Below, piece by piece: positions 10,082-32,206 of a stretch of DNA of 64,000 nucleotides. Both the position numbers and the translations under genes were made by a program. This stretch comes from Filimonas sp. GTDB taxonomy: Bacteria; Bacteroidota; Bacteroidia; Chitinophagales; Chitinophagaceae. The first letter of the stretch is position 1. Every line of letters begins with the position of its first letter. The notes under the pieces were generated by a model. That model was given only the letters and a program-made list of their open reading frames with translations. It made no database searches and was not told the DNA's origin. Location: the NCBI GenBank assembly GCA_017306865.1, contig JAFKHH010000016.1, forward strand, positions 248,001 to 312,000, in the 5' to 3' direction.

Positions 10082-10600
10082 ATGCTAACAAAATCCCTGA
10101 TTGAAAAATACTTTGTTGCGGAAAAAAATGCGTGCCTGGTATTCATCATTATAGGCATTATAACAACGCTTGTTGCTATTACAGGCTATCTAGTTTATAA
10201 AAATAATTTCTGGAAGGGCGCGTTCATCCCATTGTTATTGCTTGGCACCGTTCAGATCATAACCGCATATATGCCGTATAAAAAAGCGGATGAATTTCGT
10301 ACGGCAAATGTGTATGCAATGGACATGAACCCTTCTCTGCTAAGAGAAAAAGAGTTGCCACGTATGCAACAGTTACAGCGTAGCATCAATTTGTTTCGCT
10401 GGATAGAAATTGCGCTTATTGTTGTAGCCGCAGTTCTGATCTTTCGTTTCAGGGCGAACCCGGAGCAAGTCTATTGGTATGGCTTCGGCGTAGCATTGCT
10501 GATACAATCGGCAATTTTATTAGTAGGCGAGGTCATGGCTGGTCAGCGGGCATCAGGATATTTGTTGCAATTGGAAGCATTTATTAAACAAATAGGATAA
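10082..10600 (+). CDS. Four-helix membrane protein of unknown function
   Basis: This 172-residue protein shows four hydrophobic segments: about residues 20-40, 48-66, 104-122 and 130-150. Between helices two and three is a charged loop (RTANVYAMDMNPSLLREKE). I do not recognise a named family. It starts 10 bp after the glutathione peroxidase stop, on the same strand, so a shared transcript is likely. The charged loop and paired helices suggest an inner-membrane protein without an obvious transport or enzymatic motif. Confidence 0.72.
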   Translation: MLTKSLIEKYFVAEKNACLVFIIIGIITTLVAITGYLVYKNNFWKGAFIPLLLLGTVQIITAYMPYKKADEFRTANVYAMDMNPSLLREKELPRMQQLQRSINLFRWIEIALIVVAAVLIFRFRANPEQVYWYGFGVALLIQSAILLVGEVMAGQRASGYLLQLEAFIKQIG

Positions 10601-10603
10601 ACT

Positions 10604-10733
10604 ATTCACCGCAGAGCCGCAGAGAACGGAGAGTAACATAGAGAGAAGCCTATTCACGATTGCCGCCTCACGATTCACGAAACCTCCTTTGCACCAACTG
10701 TAATACTTATAGGTCTTTGTGTGACATAAGTGT
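10604..10733. repeat. GCAGAG and TTCACGA word array between converging genes
   Basis: CACCGCAGAGCCGCAGAG (10605-10622) and ATTCACGATTGCCGCCTCAC (10650-10669) lie between converging genes. They belong to the same word families seen at 9357-9430 and elsewhere. Confidence 0.5.
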
Positions 10734-12412: not shown

Positions 12413-12651
12413 TTTTTTGATTTGAACTGCAAAGGTAGATTTAAATGGGGGAATTGTGGCATTGTTTAATAGCTAAATTGACTGGAATATATGAGAAACA
12501 AGGAGTTAGAAAATTACTAAATCACAGTCAAGAGGCAGAGGGCATAACGATTGCGCAGAAAAAAGAAAATGAATTTGCCGCATAGACTCAGAAACACAGA
12601 AAAGAAAACTTATCGGGCCTCTCCGTTCTCTGCGTCTCTGCGGTAAATTTC
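12413..12651. repeat. Inverted GCAGAG/CTCTGCG word array
   Basis: Between psd and cdsA, CCGCATAGACTCAGAAACAC (12579-12598) faces CCGTTCTCTGCGTCTCTGCG (12623-12642). The two arms are inverted relatives and could fold into an imperfect hairpin. No gene is seen. Confidence 0.5.
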
Positions 12652-13530
12652 TTACGCCATTACCAGTTTTAAATATAACCACACAATGGGTGTTGCCAGT
12701 AAGAGTGAATCGAAACGGTCGAGGAAGCCGCCGTGACCGGGCATCATGCTGCCGCTGTCTTTTACGCCCGCCATGCGTTTGAGTTTGCTCTCCAGCAGGT
12801 CACCGGCTGTACCAAAAATGGCTGCAATAGCAGAAACAACGAGCAATAGTTGTGTATCGCCCATATAAGCCCAGTTACCTACCAGCGTTACAACTACTAC
12901 CGCAAGTATAGCACCACCTACGGTGCCTTCCCATGTTTTCTTAGGAGATATTTTGGAGAAGGGCGTTTTACCTATAAATGACCCGACAATGTATGCCATG
13001 GTATCATTGATCCAGATAGACGCGATTAATACAATCGGTATGCGCCAGCCAAAATCAGGGAACGAGAAGTATTCTGTAAATCTCGTATCATAATTACGGA
13101 TGTTGATCATTAAACCCCAGCTTAGGGATATGTACAATAAACCGAGCAATGAGTGTACAAGTACTTTTGGATTGAACTTTTTGCTGAGCAAGACTTCCAC
13201 TACGGGAATAGCAATTGCGAAAACGATCATGAGCCACTTTCCTATTTCCGCAAAATAAAAACCACCTAACCTGTATGACTTGTTGGTCATAAATAACATG
13301 AAGCCCCAGCCGAGGAGCATGATACCGTATTTATGAAAAGGATTGATCTTTTGATATCCGGGATCAATTAGCCCGATGAGTTTCTGGTATTCATGCCAGC
13401 AACCAAAATGTATAACAGAGAAGAGCAGGAAGAATGTCCAGTGATTGAGCAACAGACCTGTGAGCATAATGATCACAAAGAATACTGCTGATAACGCACG
13501 TGTCTTAAAGGTATCTACGTTGAAAGCCAA
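12652..13530 (-). CDS. cdsA: Phosphatidate cytidylyltransferase
   Basis: This 292-residue integral membrane protein has about eight helices. It makes CDP-diacylglycerol from phosphatidic acid and CTP. The family signature is intact near the C-terminus: SKLKRMAGVKDSG, then PGHGG and FLDRFDS. The metal-binding Asp residues in this signature are all present. It lies between the DUF2007-like gene (131 bp upstream) and psd (downstream). Confidence 0.95.
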   Translation of the reverse strand: MAFNVDTFKTRALSAVFFVIIMLTGLLLNHWTFFLLFSVIHFGCWHEYQKLIGLIDPGYQKINPFHKYGIMLLGWGFMLFMTNKSYRLGGFYFAEIGKWLMIVFAIAIPVVEVLLSKKFNPKVLVHSLLGLLYISLSWGLMINIRNYDTRFTEYFSFPDFGWRIPIVLIASIWINDTMAYIVGSFIGKTPFSKISPKKTWEGTVGGAILAVVVVTLVGNWAYMGDTQLLLVVSAIAAIFGTAGDLLESKLKRMAGVKDSGSMMPGHGGFLDRFDSLLLATPIVWLYLKLVMA

Positions 13531-25755: not shown

Positions 25756-28044
25756 CTAAGCAACTTTCTTATATTCATTATGCTTCGGCTTGCTTAACAT
25801 CTCTGCATTCACTGCTTGAGTCAAATAACTCTCTGCCGTTTTTTCTGGAATCTGCATGAGATTTGCTATATCCATTGCGTCTTTTCTGTTAAACTGTGAC
25901 GGAAGAGATTGAATATATTTTTCTTTATTACTTGCTCTACCAGTTTTTGTTGCTTTTAATGTAGAGTAAATTTCTACACTATGATAGATCAGGCAATCGA
26001 TCATCCCGGTCGTTGTTCTAAAATCAATATCAGAACAGACTATTTGAGATGGCAATATTTCATTTTCAGCAATTCTAATTGTTGTCAAAATCATGGCAAT
26101 GCGAAAAAATATTGTTCCCATTCTGCGTATCGATGCCAAAACATCATCTCCATATATATTCTTCAAAGAGATGCTCTTTTCTCTAAACCAATCATTAAAC
26201 TCTTTTCCTTGTTGTTCGGATAGAGAAAATTCAATCTCATCGCTTTCCGCCCCATTTAAAAAGTCAAATAAATATGGTTTAGTAATATCAAATAACCTCA
26301 CCCCTTCACTCCTTAGTTTGTAATCACAACTTTCTTTTTTTGCAAACACATCTTTCCAAATACATTCTGAAGAAAAGGAGTAAAACAAAAACCTACTTGT
26401 CAATCCATTCTCAGAACCTGGCAACATTCTTCTAACTTGATTTGGGGTACCTGAAACAAGTACAGAAAATGCAGAAGAGTTTATACAACAATATTCATCA
26501 TTAGTTTTTCTTTCATAGGAGATATCTTCATGATGAAAAGCCTTGCGGTAAATCTCAGAAAAATTACCATGTTCGGATTTATTAGCATTAGTCAAAGTAT
26601 CAGCCTCCGTATCAAATACCAACCCCATTTTTTTATTTCCCTCGATGGTATTCATTAATTTAGCTGATGTATTATTGGCAGGCACAAAAAATTTTTTCAT
26701 AACAGGAGGTATTATGCCTTTTTTCCCATCTTCCTCCAGCGCATCATAAGCACCTTTTTCATATTGGTAATCATCCAAAAAGCGCTTGTGAATTTCTCCT
26801 CCTAATTCCTTGATGCCATTTAACACCCCTTTTCCACTTGCCGCGGGGGCAGTAATAAATGAGAAAAGATTTGCATGAATACGTCTGGAATCATAAACAC
26901 CAAAAACTCTTGGAAAGCAGGTACTAAGTAGAGTAAGTGTGCCGAGAAGAAACATATCCCTTTCTCTAGCATCATCATAAAGTGACATTATTCCTTTAAT
27001 GAAAGGGGGCAAATTTTGATATGCCATATCAGGAATAACAGGAGTTTTCCAATTTTCAGTTTTATCTGTCCAACTGGAAAAGACTTCCTGATTTTTCTCA
27101 TACATACCATCGAACACGCGATATAAATCATTTTTTTCATCGAAAGGATTTGCCTCGCAAATTACTGCCTCGCTATTCCAAAAAAACGTTTTAAAATGCT
27201 GAATCGCCTTTTCCTTAGTAATTCCAAAAGAATTGCAGTAAACTGCTAGCTTCACAAGCCAATTATGCCTATTTCCCACTTTAAAGTCACCTGCATCACG
27301 CGTAGCTAGCCTGCACAATGAAACAAAATTTGAAGGGTCGTTTCTTTTTTCATAATTTAATCTAGAAGATAAATATTGATATCCCTTCTCAAAAAGAATA
27401 TGTGCTTCGTTTTTTCCTATCTCATTGTTGGCACTTGTTGCACTTAACCTTTTAACATTTTCAAAATACTTATCGGCCAAAAATGTATAGTAGCTATTTG
27501 ATTGTATGTCATATAAAGTAGGATTATAATAAACATCCGCATCATGGCATAAAAAACAGGCTCTTGAAATATTAGAGCAACTTTTATCAATAGCATTTTC
27601 TGGCAGGCCTATGTCATTTATCAAATAATCAACATATGCATCAAAATTGCGTTTAAAGCTAAATTGCGGATTACATGGAAAGATGAGTTTCAAACCATTA
27701 CCCCTTGGGGATATAAATGCCATTACTAAAATCTGCTCTGCAGTCTCCAACACCTTTTTTTTGAAATCTTGAGCGTTGTTCAACCCATCAATATCAAGGC
27801 AGATTAAACCAGATTCCTGAACAAGATCGCCATCTTTTCTTGTTTTAAATGTACCTCCAAAAGTTACATAAGGCAATTGATTTTTCTTATATAAACTCTG
27901 AAGAGCAGGGAGCGCTTTGCGCAAATAAGCAGTTTTCCTTTTTAGTTCTTCATCTGCTTTAATTAAATTAAACACTTCATCAATACTGATTTGAGACTGC
28001 GGGGTAATATTTGTTATACCGGCAGAAAAGAAGTTAATTGTCAT
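25756..28044 (-). CDS. BT4734-like/DUF3987 primase-helicase
   Basis: This 762-residue replication protein has two parts. The N-terminal 200 residues match the BT4734-like (VirE-N) domain with an archaeo-eukaryotic primase-like core: GLICLDIDG (metal-binding Asp pair) and SPRGNGLKLIFP, then DKSCSNISRACFL. The C-terminal part from about 345 is DUF3987, a superfamily-3-like helicase with Walker A APAASGKG and Walker B LVFDTEADTL. Such proteins replicate Bacteroidota mobile elements. An AT-rich stretch upstream (28120-28310) could be the origin. Confidence 0.88.
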   Translation of the reverse strand: MTINFFSAGITNITPQSQISIDEVFNLIKADEELKRKTAYLRKALPALQSLYKKNQLPYVTFGGTFKTRKDGDLVQESGLICLDIDGLNNAQDFKKKVLETAEQILVMAFISPRGNGLKLIFPCNPQFSFKRNFDAYVDYLINDIGLPENAIDKSCSNISRACFLCHDADVYYNPTLYDIQSNSYYTFLADKYFENVKRLSATSANNEIGKNEAHILFEKGYQYLSSRLNYEKRNDPSNFVSLCRLATRDAGDFKVGNRHNWLVKLAVYCNSFGITKEKAIQHFKTFFWNSEAVICEANPFDEKNDLYRVFDGMYEKNQEVFSSWTDKTENWKTPVIPDMAYQNLPPFIKGIMSLYDDARERDMFLLGTLTLLSTCFPRVFGVYDSRRIHANLFSFITAPAASGKGVLNGIKELGGEIHKRFLDDYQYEKGAYDALEEDGKKGIIPPVMKKFFVPANNTSAKLMNTIEGNKKMGLVFDTEADTLTNANKSEHGNFSEIYRKAFHHEDISYERKTNDEYCCINSSAFSVLVSGTPNQVRRMLPGSENGLTSRFLFYSFSSECIWKDVFAKKESCDYKLRSEGVRLFDITKPYLFDFLNGAESDEIEFSLSEQQGKEFNDWFREKSISLKNIYGDDVLASIRRMGTIFFRIAMILTTIRIAENEILPSQIVCSDIDFRTTTGMIDCLIYHSVEIYSTLKATKTGRASNKEKYIQSLPSQFNRKDAMDIANLMQIPEKTAESYLTQAVNAEMLSKPKHNEYKKVA

Positions 28045-28317
28045 TTTTAAAAAAATTAATAAATGAAACCGATTTGTTCTTTCTACGATTTTTAAACTAT
28101 TGTCAGCAAAAAGCTGATTCCCTCTTTCAAAGAACTTCAGCGAAGAACATCACACTAATCACTCTTCACACATCGCTATATATAGAAGTCAAACAGTAAT
28201 CCATTTGACTCAATAAGAAAAATTGACAGTATATAAACTATTAATATTTTATATAATTTTTTATTTGATATTATAATTTATATAGCTGCAATTTTTTCAT
28301 GCTCATGACAAAATGGA
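28045..28317. other. AT-rich gap, candidate replication origin
   Basis: The 273-bp gap contains no gene. It includes short repeats around TCAGC and CACTAATCACTCTTCACACA (about 28136-28173) and an extreme AT tract (28200-28300). Placement beside a primase-helicase gene fits an origin, but no iteron series could be proven. Confidence 0.3.
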
Positions 28318-28608
28318 TTAGCGGTATCCTCTTATTGCCTTGATCGATTTTTCTAGATCAGATTGCCAAAAGCGTTGACGTGTGCCTGAAACCGACAACG
28401 CTTTTACTCTCCCCTCTCTTATGTATTTCGAAAGAGTAGGAGCAGAAACACCTAAAAACTTTGCTGCCTCTTTTTTTGTTAGTAGGCTATCGTCTTTCTT
28501 TTCATCAGCAGAAGGAGTACGTATGTTTACTATAGCTTCTTTAACTGCTTCAGTAATATATTGTTTCAATAGATCGATACTGTGTACTTCAATAAATGTT
28601 GTTGACAT
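28318..28608 (-). CDS. Excisionase-like helix-turn-helix protein
   Basis: This 96-residue protein ends in a winged HTH of the MerR/excisionase group: TKKEAAKFLGVSAPTLSKYI, REGRVKALSVSGTRQRFW, then SDLEKSIKAI. A charged N-terminal helix precedes it. In Bacteroidota islands such a gene beside integrase and primase directs excision or controls replication. It is encoded between integrase and primase-helicase on the same strand. Confidence 0.85.
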   Translation of the reverse strand: MSTTFIEVHSIDLLKQYITEAVKEAIVNIRTPSADEKKDDSLLTKKEAAKFLGVSAPTLSKYIREGRVKALSVSGTRQRFWQSDLEKSIKAIRGYR

Positions 28609-28757
28609 AAAATCGGCTTTATTTTTTAGTTATAAATAGCTTTCGCTGTTACCGATTTGTCACCAGCAGTGAGGTTCGCTGGCGATTTTACAATTTTTGA
28701 TGCGAGATGCATCGGAAGAACAAAGGAAAATGAAATTTAAAAACTTTCGCTATTATG

Positions 28758-30017
28758 CTAAGAAAAGATCGAATATTTTTTTAACGCCTCGGCGTTTTGT
28801 TGTTGACTAATTCTTACATAGCTCTGAAATGCGCGCAATGATTTATGCGCCGTCATCAACATAATACTACTTGTATTTATCCCATCTAAAATTGAATTAC
28901 TTATTAAGCTTCTTCTTCCAACATGGGTTGTAAGTAACTGCCATTTTTCTTTTGTTGCTGTCTTTTTATTACCTCCAATAGTTTTTGTAACGATGACCGG
29001 ATCATTCAATTCTGCTTTTTTTCCAATTTCCTTCAGGCAACGATTCGATATCTGATTGCATGGAGCTTTGGGTAATTCGTAGTTATATTTTTCAAATACC
29101 CTGCGAACATGAGAAGAAATGGGTATTACAACTTCTTGACCGGTCTTTACTGTTCTTACAATTAAAACTTCATCTTTTATATTCTCTTTCTTAAGCCTTA
29201 CAACATCTGAATACCTCAAGGCTGTATAACAGCTAATAATAAAATAATCACGTACTACATCGTTTGTTTTATCGTCAGAAAGGTCAAGATTCGCCAGTGT
29301 TTCAATTTCTTCTTTTGTAAGAAAAATCCTTTCTACATCTTCTGCTGGCTTTTGAAAGCTTTTGCTTCTGAATGATAAATTTGTGTTCAGACCTCTTTCG
29401 GTTGCTTCATTCATAAATACCTTCACCGTCTTAATATGCTTCCCTTCAGTATTGCGACCTATCCCTCTAGATTGAAGGAATTTAATAAATTGACTACGCC
29501 ATTCTATTGTAATATCATCATACTCAAAACTTCTCTTTGCTAACGTTTCAGCGAACTGTTTCATTCTCCTATATGTACCCCAGTATGTTTTTATTGTTGC
29601 TTCTTTCTTAATTGGCGTACAGTCTGAAATATATTGCTCAATAAAAGGAAATAAGGAAAGTTTTTGGGGTGCAGCTTCTTTAATGCTAACTGGTAGAATA
29701 TTTAGTTTCGAATTAACTCTTTCTTTCAATTCACTAGCAAGTGGCACAATGCCATCAATTTGAAAATTGCGGAATTCTTCTTTGAAAGTATTTGCCATTT
29801 TATCAAGCCAAAAATTCAATGAGCTTGACATTGGCTTCTGTTTTCCAGCAATAGCTCTTTGAGATGCAAAACTCCAGGCAGTTGCAAGGATTTTTTCACC
29901 TGTTGTAAGAGTAAAACGTTGAGGCCCTTCAGAAGCAGTGTATTTTACATCCATATAAATCAGCGTTGGCTCTTGTGACTTGGGGTCTTTTAAGTAAAAC
30001 CGTGGTTCAGGAATCAT
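28758..30017 (-). CDS. Tyrosine recombinase/integrase of the island
   Basis: This 419-residue protein has an N-terminal arm-binding region (RFYLKDPKSQEPTLIYMDVK), a SAM-like core-binding domain (about 125-225) and a C-terminal catalytic domain. Catalytic residues can be picked out: Arg in CYTALRYSDVVRLK, Lys in VKTGQEV, His365-x-x-Arg368 in THVGRRS, His391 in TAHKS, and the nucleophile Tyr400 in FQSYVRI. It faces away from the right att site, 211 bp off. It should integrate the island at the 3' end of tRNA-Arg. Confidence 0.95.
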   Translation of the reverse strand: MIPEPRFYLKDPKSQEPTLIYMDVKYTASEGPQRFTLTTGEKILATAWSFASQRAIAGKQKPMSSSLNFWLDKMANTFKEEFRNFQIDGIVPLASELKERVNSKLNILPVSIKEAAPQKLSLFPFIEQYISDCTPIKKEATIKTYWGTYRRMKQFAETLAKRSFEYDDITIEWRSQFIKFLQSRGIGRNTEGKHIKTVKVFMNEATERGLNTNLSFRSKSFQKPAEDVERIFLTKEEIETLANLDLSDDKTNDVVRDYFIISCYTALRYSDVVRLKKENIKDEVLIVRTVKTGQEVVIPISSHVRRVFEKYNYELPKAPCNQISNRCLKEIGKKAELNDPVIVTKTIGGNKKTATKEKWQLLTTHVGRRSLISNSILDGINTSSIMLMTAHKSLRAFQSYVRISQQQNAEALKKYSIFS

Positions 30018-30290: not shown

Positions 30291-30677
30291 TTAAGCTTTA
30301 TACTTACTTAAACTGACGATGCCCCATGCAGCCAATAAAACCTCTACAACTAAACCCACCAAAAAGAAATTAGAAGGGGTTCCATCGAAAACAATGCTGA
30401 TAATTCTACCTGAAGCAAGACCAGCCATAAACAAAATATTGGCGATTGTTGCAGGCTTCCAGTATGCTGGTTTAATAATTCCAACAAACCAAAACGCAGC
30501 CATCGCGATGTACAAACCCATTAAGGCTCTAAAAATGCCTGAAAGCCCTCTCTGTTCTAATGTGAAATGAAAGCAGCTTTGCATAAATCCACCGGGAAGT
30601 AGACCATACACTATTGCTATCGGAACAATGACAATAATGGACGCCAGTAAGTGAATATTCTTTGCTTTCAAGATCAT
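30291..30677 (-). CDS. DUF4345 family membrane protein
   Basis: This 128-residue protein has four hydrophobic helices. The pattern GIFRALMGLYIAMAAFWFVG, then ILFMAGLASGRIISIVFDGTPS, matches DUF4345, a small inner-membrane family with no known function. It is the first host gene to the right of the island and is transcribed toward the att site. Confidence 0.82.
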   Translation of the reverse strand: MILKAKNIHLLASIIVIVPIAIVYGLLPGGFMQSCFHFTLEQRGLSGIFRALMGLYIAMAAFWFVGIIKPAYWKPATIANILFMAGLASGRIISIVFDGTPSNFFLVGLVVEVLLAAWGIVSLSKYKA

Positions 30678-30687
30678 CTTTTAAAAT

Positions 30688-31015
30688 ATGAGTCAAGGTA
30701 ACCAAACATATCGGCCAGAGAGTATTTAAAGCAAGACCTCCAAATTTTAAGAAGAAAAGTGTCTATAATCGTCGTTTTATGTATCAACATAGCTTTGATG
30801 AGCTGGATGCCCACCACTGGAAATATATGTGGGTGAATCTGAAAGGTGTACCGGAGGAGCATCAGGAGTGTGAAGTTGCGGAGAGATGAAAGACAGATGC
30901 TTTACGTTATGCAGAAAGAATCTGAAAACTGTGCAGCACAAATAATGGCTACAACTGGATGCTTACGACAATTAAAGAGTGAGAATACGAATACTTAAAG
31001 AAGATGATTGGCTAA
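30688..31015 (+). pseudogene. Broken gene: one frameshift and three in-frame TGA codons
   Basis: Starting at ATG 30688 the frame reads MSQGNQTYRPES and stops at TAA 30727. A one-base shift restores a long frame (FKARPPNFKKKSVYNRRFMY, then HSFDELDAHHWKYMWVNLKG) interrupted only by TGA at 30887, 30923 and 30980, and ending at TAA 31013. The text keeps a natural protein composition across the stops (KTDALRYAERI, STNNGYNWMLTTIKE, EYEYLKKMIG), so an approximately 108-residue protein was probably encoded. The family is not recognised. It overlaps the tail of the small minus-strand gene by about 20 bp. Confidence 0.5.
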
Positions 31016-31114
31016 CATTTCAAAAAAACAAGTAACCGCTAGTTGCGCAAAATCGAACAACTTTTCTATTAATGTCTTCTTAGAAGAAGAAACTTGATCT
31101 TCCGTCTGTTCCAT
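30995..31114 (-). CDS. Small hydrophobic-tailed protein, copy 2 of a tandem pair
   Basis: This 39-residue protein (MEQTEDQVSSSKKT, then a hydrophobic half with FDFAQLAVTCFFEML) is paralogous in layout to the 37-residue gene 219 bp upstream: both start M-(E/Q)-Q-T-(E/D)-(D/N)-Q, then a basic stretch, then a hydrophobic helix. Both starts lie exactly 74 bp from a shared CAATTAATTGTTAT box. An ATG at 31120 would add two residues but breaks the 219-bp register. It may be a small membrane protein. Function unknown. Confidence 0.55.
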   Translation of the reverse strand: MEQTEDQVSSSKKTLIEKLFDFAQLAVTCFFEMLANHLL

Positions 31115-31187
31115 GGGCATGAATTTATTTGCCGGATAATACTTTAAAAATATCCTGGTATTGCAAAAAATGACGCACCTCTCACAA

Positions 31188-31201
31188 CAATTAATTGTTA
31201 T
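31188..31201. repeat. 14-bp box, copy 2
   Basis: CAATTAATTGTTAT, identical to 31407-31420 and exactly 219 bp from it, as expected if the region arose by tandem duplication. Confidence 0.7.
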
Positions 31202-31219
31202 TAACCTTTCACAAAACAA

Positions 31220-31333
31220 TTAATGATCAAACAAAAGGTAGCCAACACATTCAACTAAAAACCACAGGGCACCAGAAAAATTTCGTTTTCGTTTTTCCTT
31301 AGGCGGAAAAGGTTGATTGTCCGTCTGCTGCAT
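31220..31333 (-). CDS. Small basic/hydrophobic protein, copy 1 of a tandem pair
   Basis: This 37-residue protein reads MQQTDNQPFPPKEKRKR, then NFSGALWFLVECVGYLLFDH. A strongly basic N-terminal half precedes a single hydrophobic helix, a layout typical of small membrane proteins. The second copy follows on the same strand after about 105 bp. The frame is short, so support comes from the conserved pair: matching N-termini, matching spacing to the upstream box and matching start neighbourhoods (CAAATAAATT before both ATGs). Confidence 0.55.
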   Translation of the reverse strand: MQQTDNQPFPPKEKRKRNFSGALWFLVECVGYLLFDH

Positions 31334-31406
31334 GTTTATAATTTATTTGACTGTACACTATGCTAAATATATTTTACTATTTTATAAAGATGCTCCATCT
31401 CTCTGC

Positions 31407-31420
31407 CAATTAATTGTTAT
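31407..31420. repeat. 14-bp box, copy 1
   Basis: CAATTAATTGTTAT, 74 bp before the start of the 37-residue gene. See the copy at 31188-31201. Confidence 0.7.
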
Positions 31421-31423
31421 AAA

Positions 31424-31461
31424 AGCTCAAGGCACAGCCTATCCTGGTTGTGCCTTGAGCT
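31424..31461 (-). terminator. Terminator of the NTF2-like lipoprotein gene
   Basis: AGCTCAAGGCACA and TGTGCCTTGAGCT form a perfect 13-bp stem, followed on the minus strand by TTTTATAA. It separates this gene from the tandem small-protein genes. Confidence 0.85.
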
Positions 31462-31510
31462 AGCAAGCTACCCCATAAGGTTACTAAGTGCGACAAAACT
31501 CTATTGTCTA

Positions 31511-31999
31511 TTATTTCATTTTATTAAACATATAACGTGCTATTTTCCATGAGCCATTTTCTTTTTGCAATACAAATAATTCCCGGTTTTCCTCAGGTGT
31601 AGTTTGGCCTGTGGCATGAATAAGTGTCGTTGCTTTTGAGGTAGTACGGGCGAATGCATAATCACCGTTAACGACTATTTCATCTATATGGAATGCAATT
31701 TTGAGTTGTATGTTTTTAAATACAAACTCATACGCGTCCTTTATTTGCGCTTGCCCTATTGAAGTAGGCGCATTAGTGGGCATAAACACGCCTTCTTGTG
31801 CATAGAGGGGTAATACCTTGTTTACATCAGAAACATTTAACGCATCTCTGTAGGCAAATAATAATTTTTCGATTGCTGATTTTTGTGTACTTGTTTCCAT
31901 TGTAGCATTGTTTTGTTGTTCTGAATTTTGTTGTTGTGTTTCATTATTACAGGCTATCAATAATAGTATTGTGGCAACTGTCAAGAACGTTTTCTTCAT
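31511..31999 (-). CDS. NTF2-like (SnoaL/DUF4440) lipoprotein
   Basis: From ATG 31999 the protein is 162 residues with a lipoprotein signal (MKKTFLTVATILLLIAC, lipidated Cys17). A Gln/Asn-rich linker follows, then an NTF2-like cone fold: IEKLLFAYRDALNVSDVNKV, PLYAQEGVFMPTNAPTSIG, AYEFVFKNIQ and a closing strand GSWKIARYMFNK. The fold binds small molecules or acts as a ketosteroid-isomerase-like enzyme. No specific activity can be given. A longer frame starting at 32044 would put residues before the signal and is rejected. Confidence 0.82.
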   Translation of the reverse strand: MKKTFLTVATILLLIACNNETQQQNSEQQNNATMETSTQKSAIEKLLFAYRDALNVSDVNKVLPLYAQEGVFMPTNAPTSIGQAQIKDAYEFVFKNIQLKIAFHIDEIVVNGDYAFARTTSKATTLIHATGQTTPEENRELFVLQKENGSWKIARYMFNKMK

Positions 32000-32206
32000 A
32001 AGTGATGTGTTTAAATGAACAACACAAAATTGTCCCGGAACCACTATTTATGCCAATGACCTACAGCAAGAAATAATCTTAAACTAGTTTAAGCATAACA
32101 ACGGTCATATACCTGCAATAACAACAGCTCTATTACATACACAAAAAAGCATCGCCTGAACAAGCGATGCTTTCGTTACTAAAACAACCCACCATTTATT
32201 ATAAAA

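Follow-up and report, generated by a model that had tools for sequence, protein, structure and literature searches.

Tandem duplication between short direct repeats arises by slippage or unequal crossing over, and orphan small ORFs form a general class of lineage-restricted short frames. Very small genes in tandem copies are also described among the type I toxins. In the part of the source available to us, zorO-orzO and zorP-orzP of E. coli O157:H7 are presented as tandem, highly homologous copies, each with a divergently located sRNA, and overproduction of zorO is reported to be toxic (PMC3919570). In the sections consulted of a second source, membrane type I toxins are characterized as markedly hydrophobic, with cationic residues that are generally C-terminal, and tandem duplication of small hydrophobic proteins is given among the search parameters that led to ZorO (PMC8309996).

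Here we describe a locus that invites comparison with each of these, found in a window of 64,000 nt (the whole stretch of Filimonas sp. DNA that was analysed). The minus strand carries two head-to-tail units of ∼207 nt, flanked by a SnoaL-like gene (31511–32044; Pfam SnoaL_2) on one side and a DUF4345 gene (30291–30677, by Pfam) on the other. Each unit has the box ATAACAATTAATTG, separated by 73 nt from the ATG of a frame that runs for 37 codons in unit A and 39 in unit B. Our preferred reading, to which we assign a probability of roughly 0.55, is an old tandem duplication of intergenic DNA whose copies have drifted under little or no protein-level constraint. The features of the locus, in window coordinates, are as follows.

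31214–31420, minus strand: unit A (box, leader and ORF A), aligning with unit B at 52 % identity over 207 nt without gaps
30995–31201, minus strand: unit B (box, leader and ORF B), 52 % ungapped identity to unit A over 207 nt
31220–31333, minus strand: ORF A, 37 aa, candidate orphan small protein; no match in Pfam, PHROG, NCBIfam or PADLOC
30995–31114, minus strand: ORF B, 39 aa, candidate orphan small protein; no match in Pfam, PHROG, NCBIfam or PADLOC
31407–31420, plus strand: unit A copy of box CAATTAATTGTTAT, whose palindromic core measures 10 bp
31188–31201, plus strand: box CAATTAATTGTTAT of unit B, with the palindromic core
30962–30975, plus strand: third, degenerate box that keeps to the 219-bp register and agrees with box B at 12 of 14 bases
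31340–31349, minus strand: CAAATAAATT, A-rich stretch before ORF A
31122–31131, minus strand: CAAATAAATT preceding ORF B, likewise A-rich but shifted by 1 nt from the register
31424–31461, minus strand: 16-bp hairpin (inverted repeat I2, 94 %), located after the SnoaL-like gene and ahead of unit A

The tandem duplication and its boxes

The 219-bp duplication proposed in a first-pass annotation of this DNA is real and exceeds what chance would give. At an offset of 219, 108 of 212 bases are identical without gaps (51 %), compared with a mean of 27 % (sd 3.2 %) and a next best value of 40 % among the 5,960 offsets tried; likewise, the local alignment of the two units scores 41, whereas 2,000 Markov shuffles average 10.6 and never exceed 19. 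When a unit was scanned against the window, the next best place reached 42 % identity, compared with the 52 % seen between units A and B, and as likeness at offset 219 outside the units is limited to the box remnant, a third full copy was rejected. Paralogues elsewhere in the genome were rejected as well: 39 other DNA matches at E ≤ 10 were all short (best E 0.2), and the next best place for the protein model had an E-value of 1.5. The attC core sites of integron cassette arrays occur as RYYYAAC/GTTRRRY pairs, and no such pair at 40–140 nt was found on either strand of 30951–31450, so that an origin as integron cassettes was also set aside.

The internal order of the units is well preserved. 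Both minus-strand frames, of 39 and 37 codons, are present in register as had been proposed, with their ATGs 219 bp apart at equal distance from the respective boxes; they align over 111 nt without an indel and their stops fall at most two codons apart. The boxes, claimed to be identical and separated by the same 219 bp, are exactly so. The further claim that CAAATAAATT precedes both starts holds as to its presence, but its two copies lie 218 bp apart, 1 nt out of register, which points to a compensated 1-nt indel in the leader. Identity is unevenly spread, at 14/14 in the box, 17/21 over codons 1–7, 42/90 over codons 8–37 and 4/20 past the frames. The box is the longest identical run, with P 0.0095 under uniform identity, and the 6.15-Mb genome has no exact CAATTAATTGTTAT other than the two at this locus. 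The degenerate third box stands exactly one 219-bp period beyond box B, with which it was compared; an equally good match to box B is seen at a fraction of 2.4 × 10−4 of the window's other positions.

Since the layout reads box–unit–box–unit–box, we infer recombination between two boxes that flanked a single unit. An original ∼207-bp unit would have been bordered by short CAATTAATTG boxes, and unequal recombination or slippage between them is the most likely route to a head-to-tail duplication that would have left the third box as a remnant. Drift would since have brought the copies down to about 52 % identity, with least change in the box and around the start codon, the rest of the frames diverging as neutral DNA would; such a history is compatible with translation of the frames as well as with its absence.

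The conservation of the box brings up another explanation, in which the duplicated element would be a non-coding regulatory RNA, or a binding-site region centred on the palindromic box, with the frames incidental. The box is the best-kept piece of the locus and has a palindromic core, which speaks for such a reading, but the folding energies of six stretches all fell within those of shuffled sequences (z −0.87 to 0.14), and at the Rfam gathering score the single match in the window was a tRNA, with none for the units. Furthermore, with exact copies of the box restricted to this locus, no regulon is visible, and we regard this explanation as very improbable. The arrangement of a box followed by CAAATAAATT, separated here by 56–57 nt, was also sought at gaps of 45–70 nt and was found in 4 of 274 genomes, including the own genome with its two places, while a reversed-pattern control gave none. 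Two of the outside places (L141 and L142) belong to congeneric genomes and are near-identical copies of one locus, in which no ATG-started small frame directly follows the pattern; the place in the third other genome has an ATG that is soon followed by a stop. These were discarded.

Coding potential of the two frames

The main hint of coding is the survival, in register, of both the ATG and an open frame. In simulations of neutral mutation at the observed divergence (20,000 per template), the ATG and a 37-codon open frame survived together in 1.35–1.43 % of mutants, although this P of about 0.014 overstates the support because the locus was picked for its parallel frames. Each of the other five reading frames is broken by stops in both copies.

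The first-pass annotation had argued that the proteins diverged while the layout stayed, and that this suggested selection. Our comparison of the copies does not bear this out. Identities at the three codon positions number 17, 22 and 20 of 37, with no excess of changes at third positions, and besides Met the ORFs share eight amino acids when neutral divergence gives a mean of 8.2–8.4 (P 0.59–0.63); the BLOSUM score between them, 24, is similarly ordinary (P 0.32–0.36), and pS and pN are 0.59 and 0.44, near saturation. As codon positions are alike and amino-acid likeness stands at the neutral expectation, protein-level selection is not seen between the copies, in a comparison of two short, saturated sequences that has low power, and the frames appear to be under little or no protein-level constraint. 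The N-terminal likeness that had been noted is present in that 17 of the 21 nucleotides of codons 1–7 are identical, but it is for the most part DNA that the copies have in common around the start codon: a duplication hands both copies the same start codon and N-terminus, and such likeness is in itself no evidence of selection on a protein.

Several observations run counter to plain drift and hint at some function, namely the open frames, the alignment without indels, the fall to 4/20 identity once the frames have ended, the hydropathy profiles, which agree slightly better than under neutrality (r 0.79; P 0.08–0.20), and the 14/14 box. In a second reading, which we hold to be possible but clearly less probable than drift, the ORFs would specify two paralogous, lineage-restricted small proteins, each with a polar N-terminus followed by a helix of moderate hydrophobicity, possibly in contact with the membrane. 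Transcription of each would proceed from a box-containing leader of its own, and initiation would take place at an A-rich region of Bacteroidota type. In its favour, besides the in-register frames and the near coincidence of their stops, the start region and CAAATAAATT have been kept, and V-C and H positions are common to ORF A and ORF B; against it stands the absence of any sign of constraint in codon positions or amino acids.

The start signals divide in the same way. In Flavobacterium johnsoniae, according to the portion of that study available to us, initiation is favoured by A at −3, −6, −12 and −13 (PMC6847099). ORF A, with positions counted by eye, has A at −3, −6 and −13, in keeping with the protein-pair reading; at ORF B (ATG at 31114), −6 and −12 are A whereas −3 is C, and a further ATG lies six bases upstream, at 31120, from which this frame would encode 41 aa. 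Promoters of Bacteroidota follow the consensus and spacing TTG-N17-23-TAnnTTTG. No exact instance was present in 30700–31600, where one-mismatch near-matches numbered four, two per strand, when about 0.8 per strand are expected. One of these (31245–31212, minus strand) is located about 100 nt before ORF B, in keeping with the protein-pair reading, but ORF A is preceded by none, even at one mismatch. To our knowledge, small proteins of Bacteroidota are poorly catalogued, and if the frames are translated they would be a modest example, in this phylum, of an orphan gene that arose and was then duplicated in tandem.

Homologues and genomic neighbourhood

Homologues in relatives, on whose existence the first-pass annotation had made its reading depend, were not convincingly found as far as we searched, which likewise weighs against a pair of orphan proteins. 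When the DNA and both proteins were compared with 59 genomes, the only one matched was the own genome. A two-row protein model matched 33 of 394 same-family genomes at E ≤ 0.05, the own genome included, with about 20 genomes expected from the E-value alone; the other genomes contributed 34 places (best E 2.3 × 10−4), and among the 13 of these that were examined no convincing homologue was present. In 296 same-phylum genomes the model matched the own genome and one other (E 8.7 × 10−4), the latter not convincingly. Thirteen weak matches, twelve from the same family together with the same-phylum one, all lacked an M-x-Q-T start, and five of them fell in stop-to-stop frames of more than 80 residues; the best, L117, lies on the strand opposite to a 367-aa frame. 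Another weak same-family place (L135) was examined and was not convincing. Additionally, the pattern M-[EQ]-Q-T-[DE]-[ND]-Q with an ATG was present in two other genomes of 294, once inside a longer frame and once in a frame that ends 16 residues on, and neither continues like ORF A or ORF B.

Other collections gave similar results. Scans of genome contigs with two short peptide patterns returned 52 stretches, and a pattern scan of viral contigs 266, with no relative in either; tblastn at E ≤ 10 yielded no match for ORF B in phages and otherwise only matches at E 4–9 in phages and plasmids, and the unit DNA had no match in plasmids. In 79 loci plus two more around relatives of the SnoaL-like gene, small-frame matches were no better than E 0.09 (ORF A, two-row model). 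The lists of relatives hold no same-genus genome, and the contig collections may omit records very near the window's genome; single-lineage, as applied to this locus, means not seen outside the own genome, and absence from close kin is not thereby proved.

The neighbouring genes offer observations of their own. The SnoaL-like protein has a start that by eye resembles that of a lipoprotein, and its distribution is patchy, with matches at E ≤ 1 × 10−20 in 3 of 147 relatives (own genome included) and up to 75 % identity in contigs labelled as other Bacteroidota; horizontal transfer is our guess. The hairpin at 31424–31461 is possibly the terminator of the SnoaL-like gene, but a terminator scan listed no terminator-like site in 30600–32100, this hairpin included. 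On the other side, the minus strand of 25756–30017 carries genes for a DUF3987/BT4734-like protein (762 aa), an excisionase-type HTH protein (96 aa) and a tyrosine recombinase (419 aa). Judged by this gene content, the block is probably an integrated mobile element with its integrase end about 1 kb from the duplication. No direct repeats of at least 18 nt marking element ends were found in 10–34 kb, and a link between element and duplication through long direct repeats was rejected, as none of at least 18 nt joins the two. Overlapping short frames of 36 and 50 aa on the plus strand of 30779–30998 resemble a decayed gene; they have no Pfam or NCBIfam match, PHROG gave a single weak one of unknown function (E 0.034), and for the 36-aa frame the tblastn hits in plasmids were at E 0.8 only. 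Farther off, a 43-nt inverted repeat (10591–10633 and 12619–12661, 81 % complementary) has its arms about 2 kb apart.

Toxin-like features and comparison with known systems

That the frames might be tandem type I toxins, repressed by antisense RNAs in the manner of Zor/Orz, Ldr or Ibs, was suggested by the first-pass annotation and would accord with their being small, tandem and provided with a hydrophobic stretch, as in the ZorO search parameters given in the consulted part of PMC8309996. Plus-strand promoter-like sites do overlap unit A (31313–31342 and 31347–31375), and the two plus-strand near-matches to the Bacteroidota promoter fall in the same region. Sigma-70-like sites, however, are no commoner than in shuffles (5 found and 5.8 expected), and the leaders show no structure beyond that of shuffled sequences. 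The hydrophobic stretches are ordinary for their composition: the best 17-residue hydropathy is 1.71 for ORF A and 1.49 for ORF B, values that 14 % and 22 %, respectively, of 3,000 composition-matched random frames reach. With GRAVY values of −0.64 and 0.11 and net charges of +1 and −3 (ORF A and ORF B), the predicted peptides differ from the membrane type I toxins, which are markedly hydrophobic and have cationic residues in the account cited above. Neither a protein family nor Rfam provides a match. Beyond small size and tandem layout, the toxin reading gains no support from these features and, from what the sequence offers, would seem most unlikely. Marginally less improbable, though still a long shot, is a lineage-specific pair of small membrane-active peptides that duplicated and split their functions, for example into a peptide and its modulator, with a regulator binding the palindromic CAATTAATTG box.

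Among the publications listed by our searches, none dealt with such a locus to judge by its title. The likeness of the locus to described systems is in each case partial. With zorO-orzO and zorP-orzP the locus shares two tandem copies of a unit bearing a very small frame, but as far as the consulted part of that work describes them, the zor copies are highly homologous, whereas units A and B are 52 % alike, their hydrophobicity is moderate and no sRNA was found. Like taxonomically restricted (orphan) small ORFs, the frames are short and lack detectable homologues outside one lineage; unlike that class in general, these candidate genes are duplicated in tandem. Finally, as in a tandem duplication between direct repeats, the units are bounded by a short repeat and the copies stand in register, although, in contrast to a fresh event of this type, the copies here are old and only about half identical.
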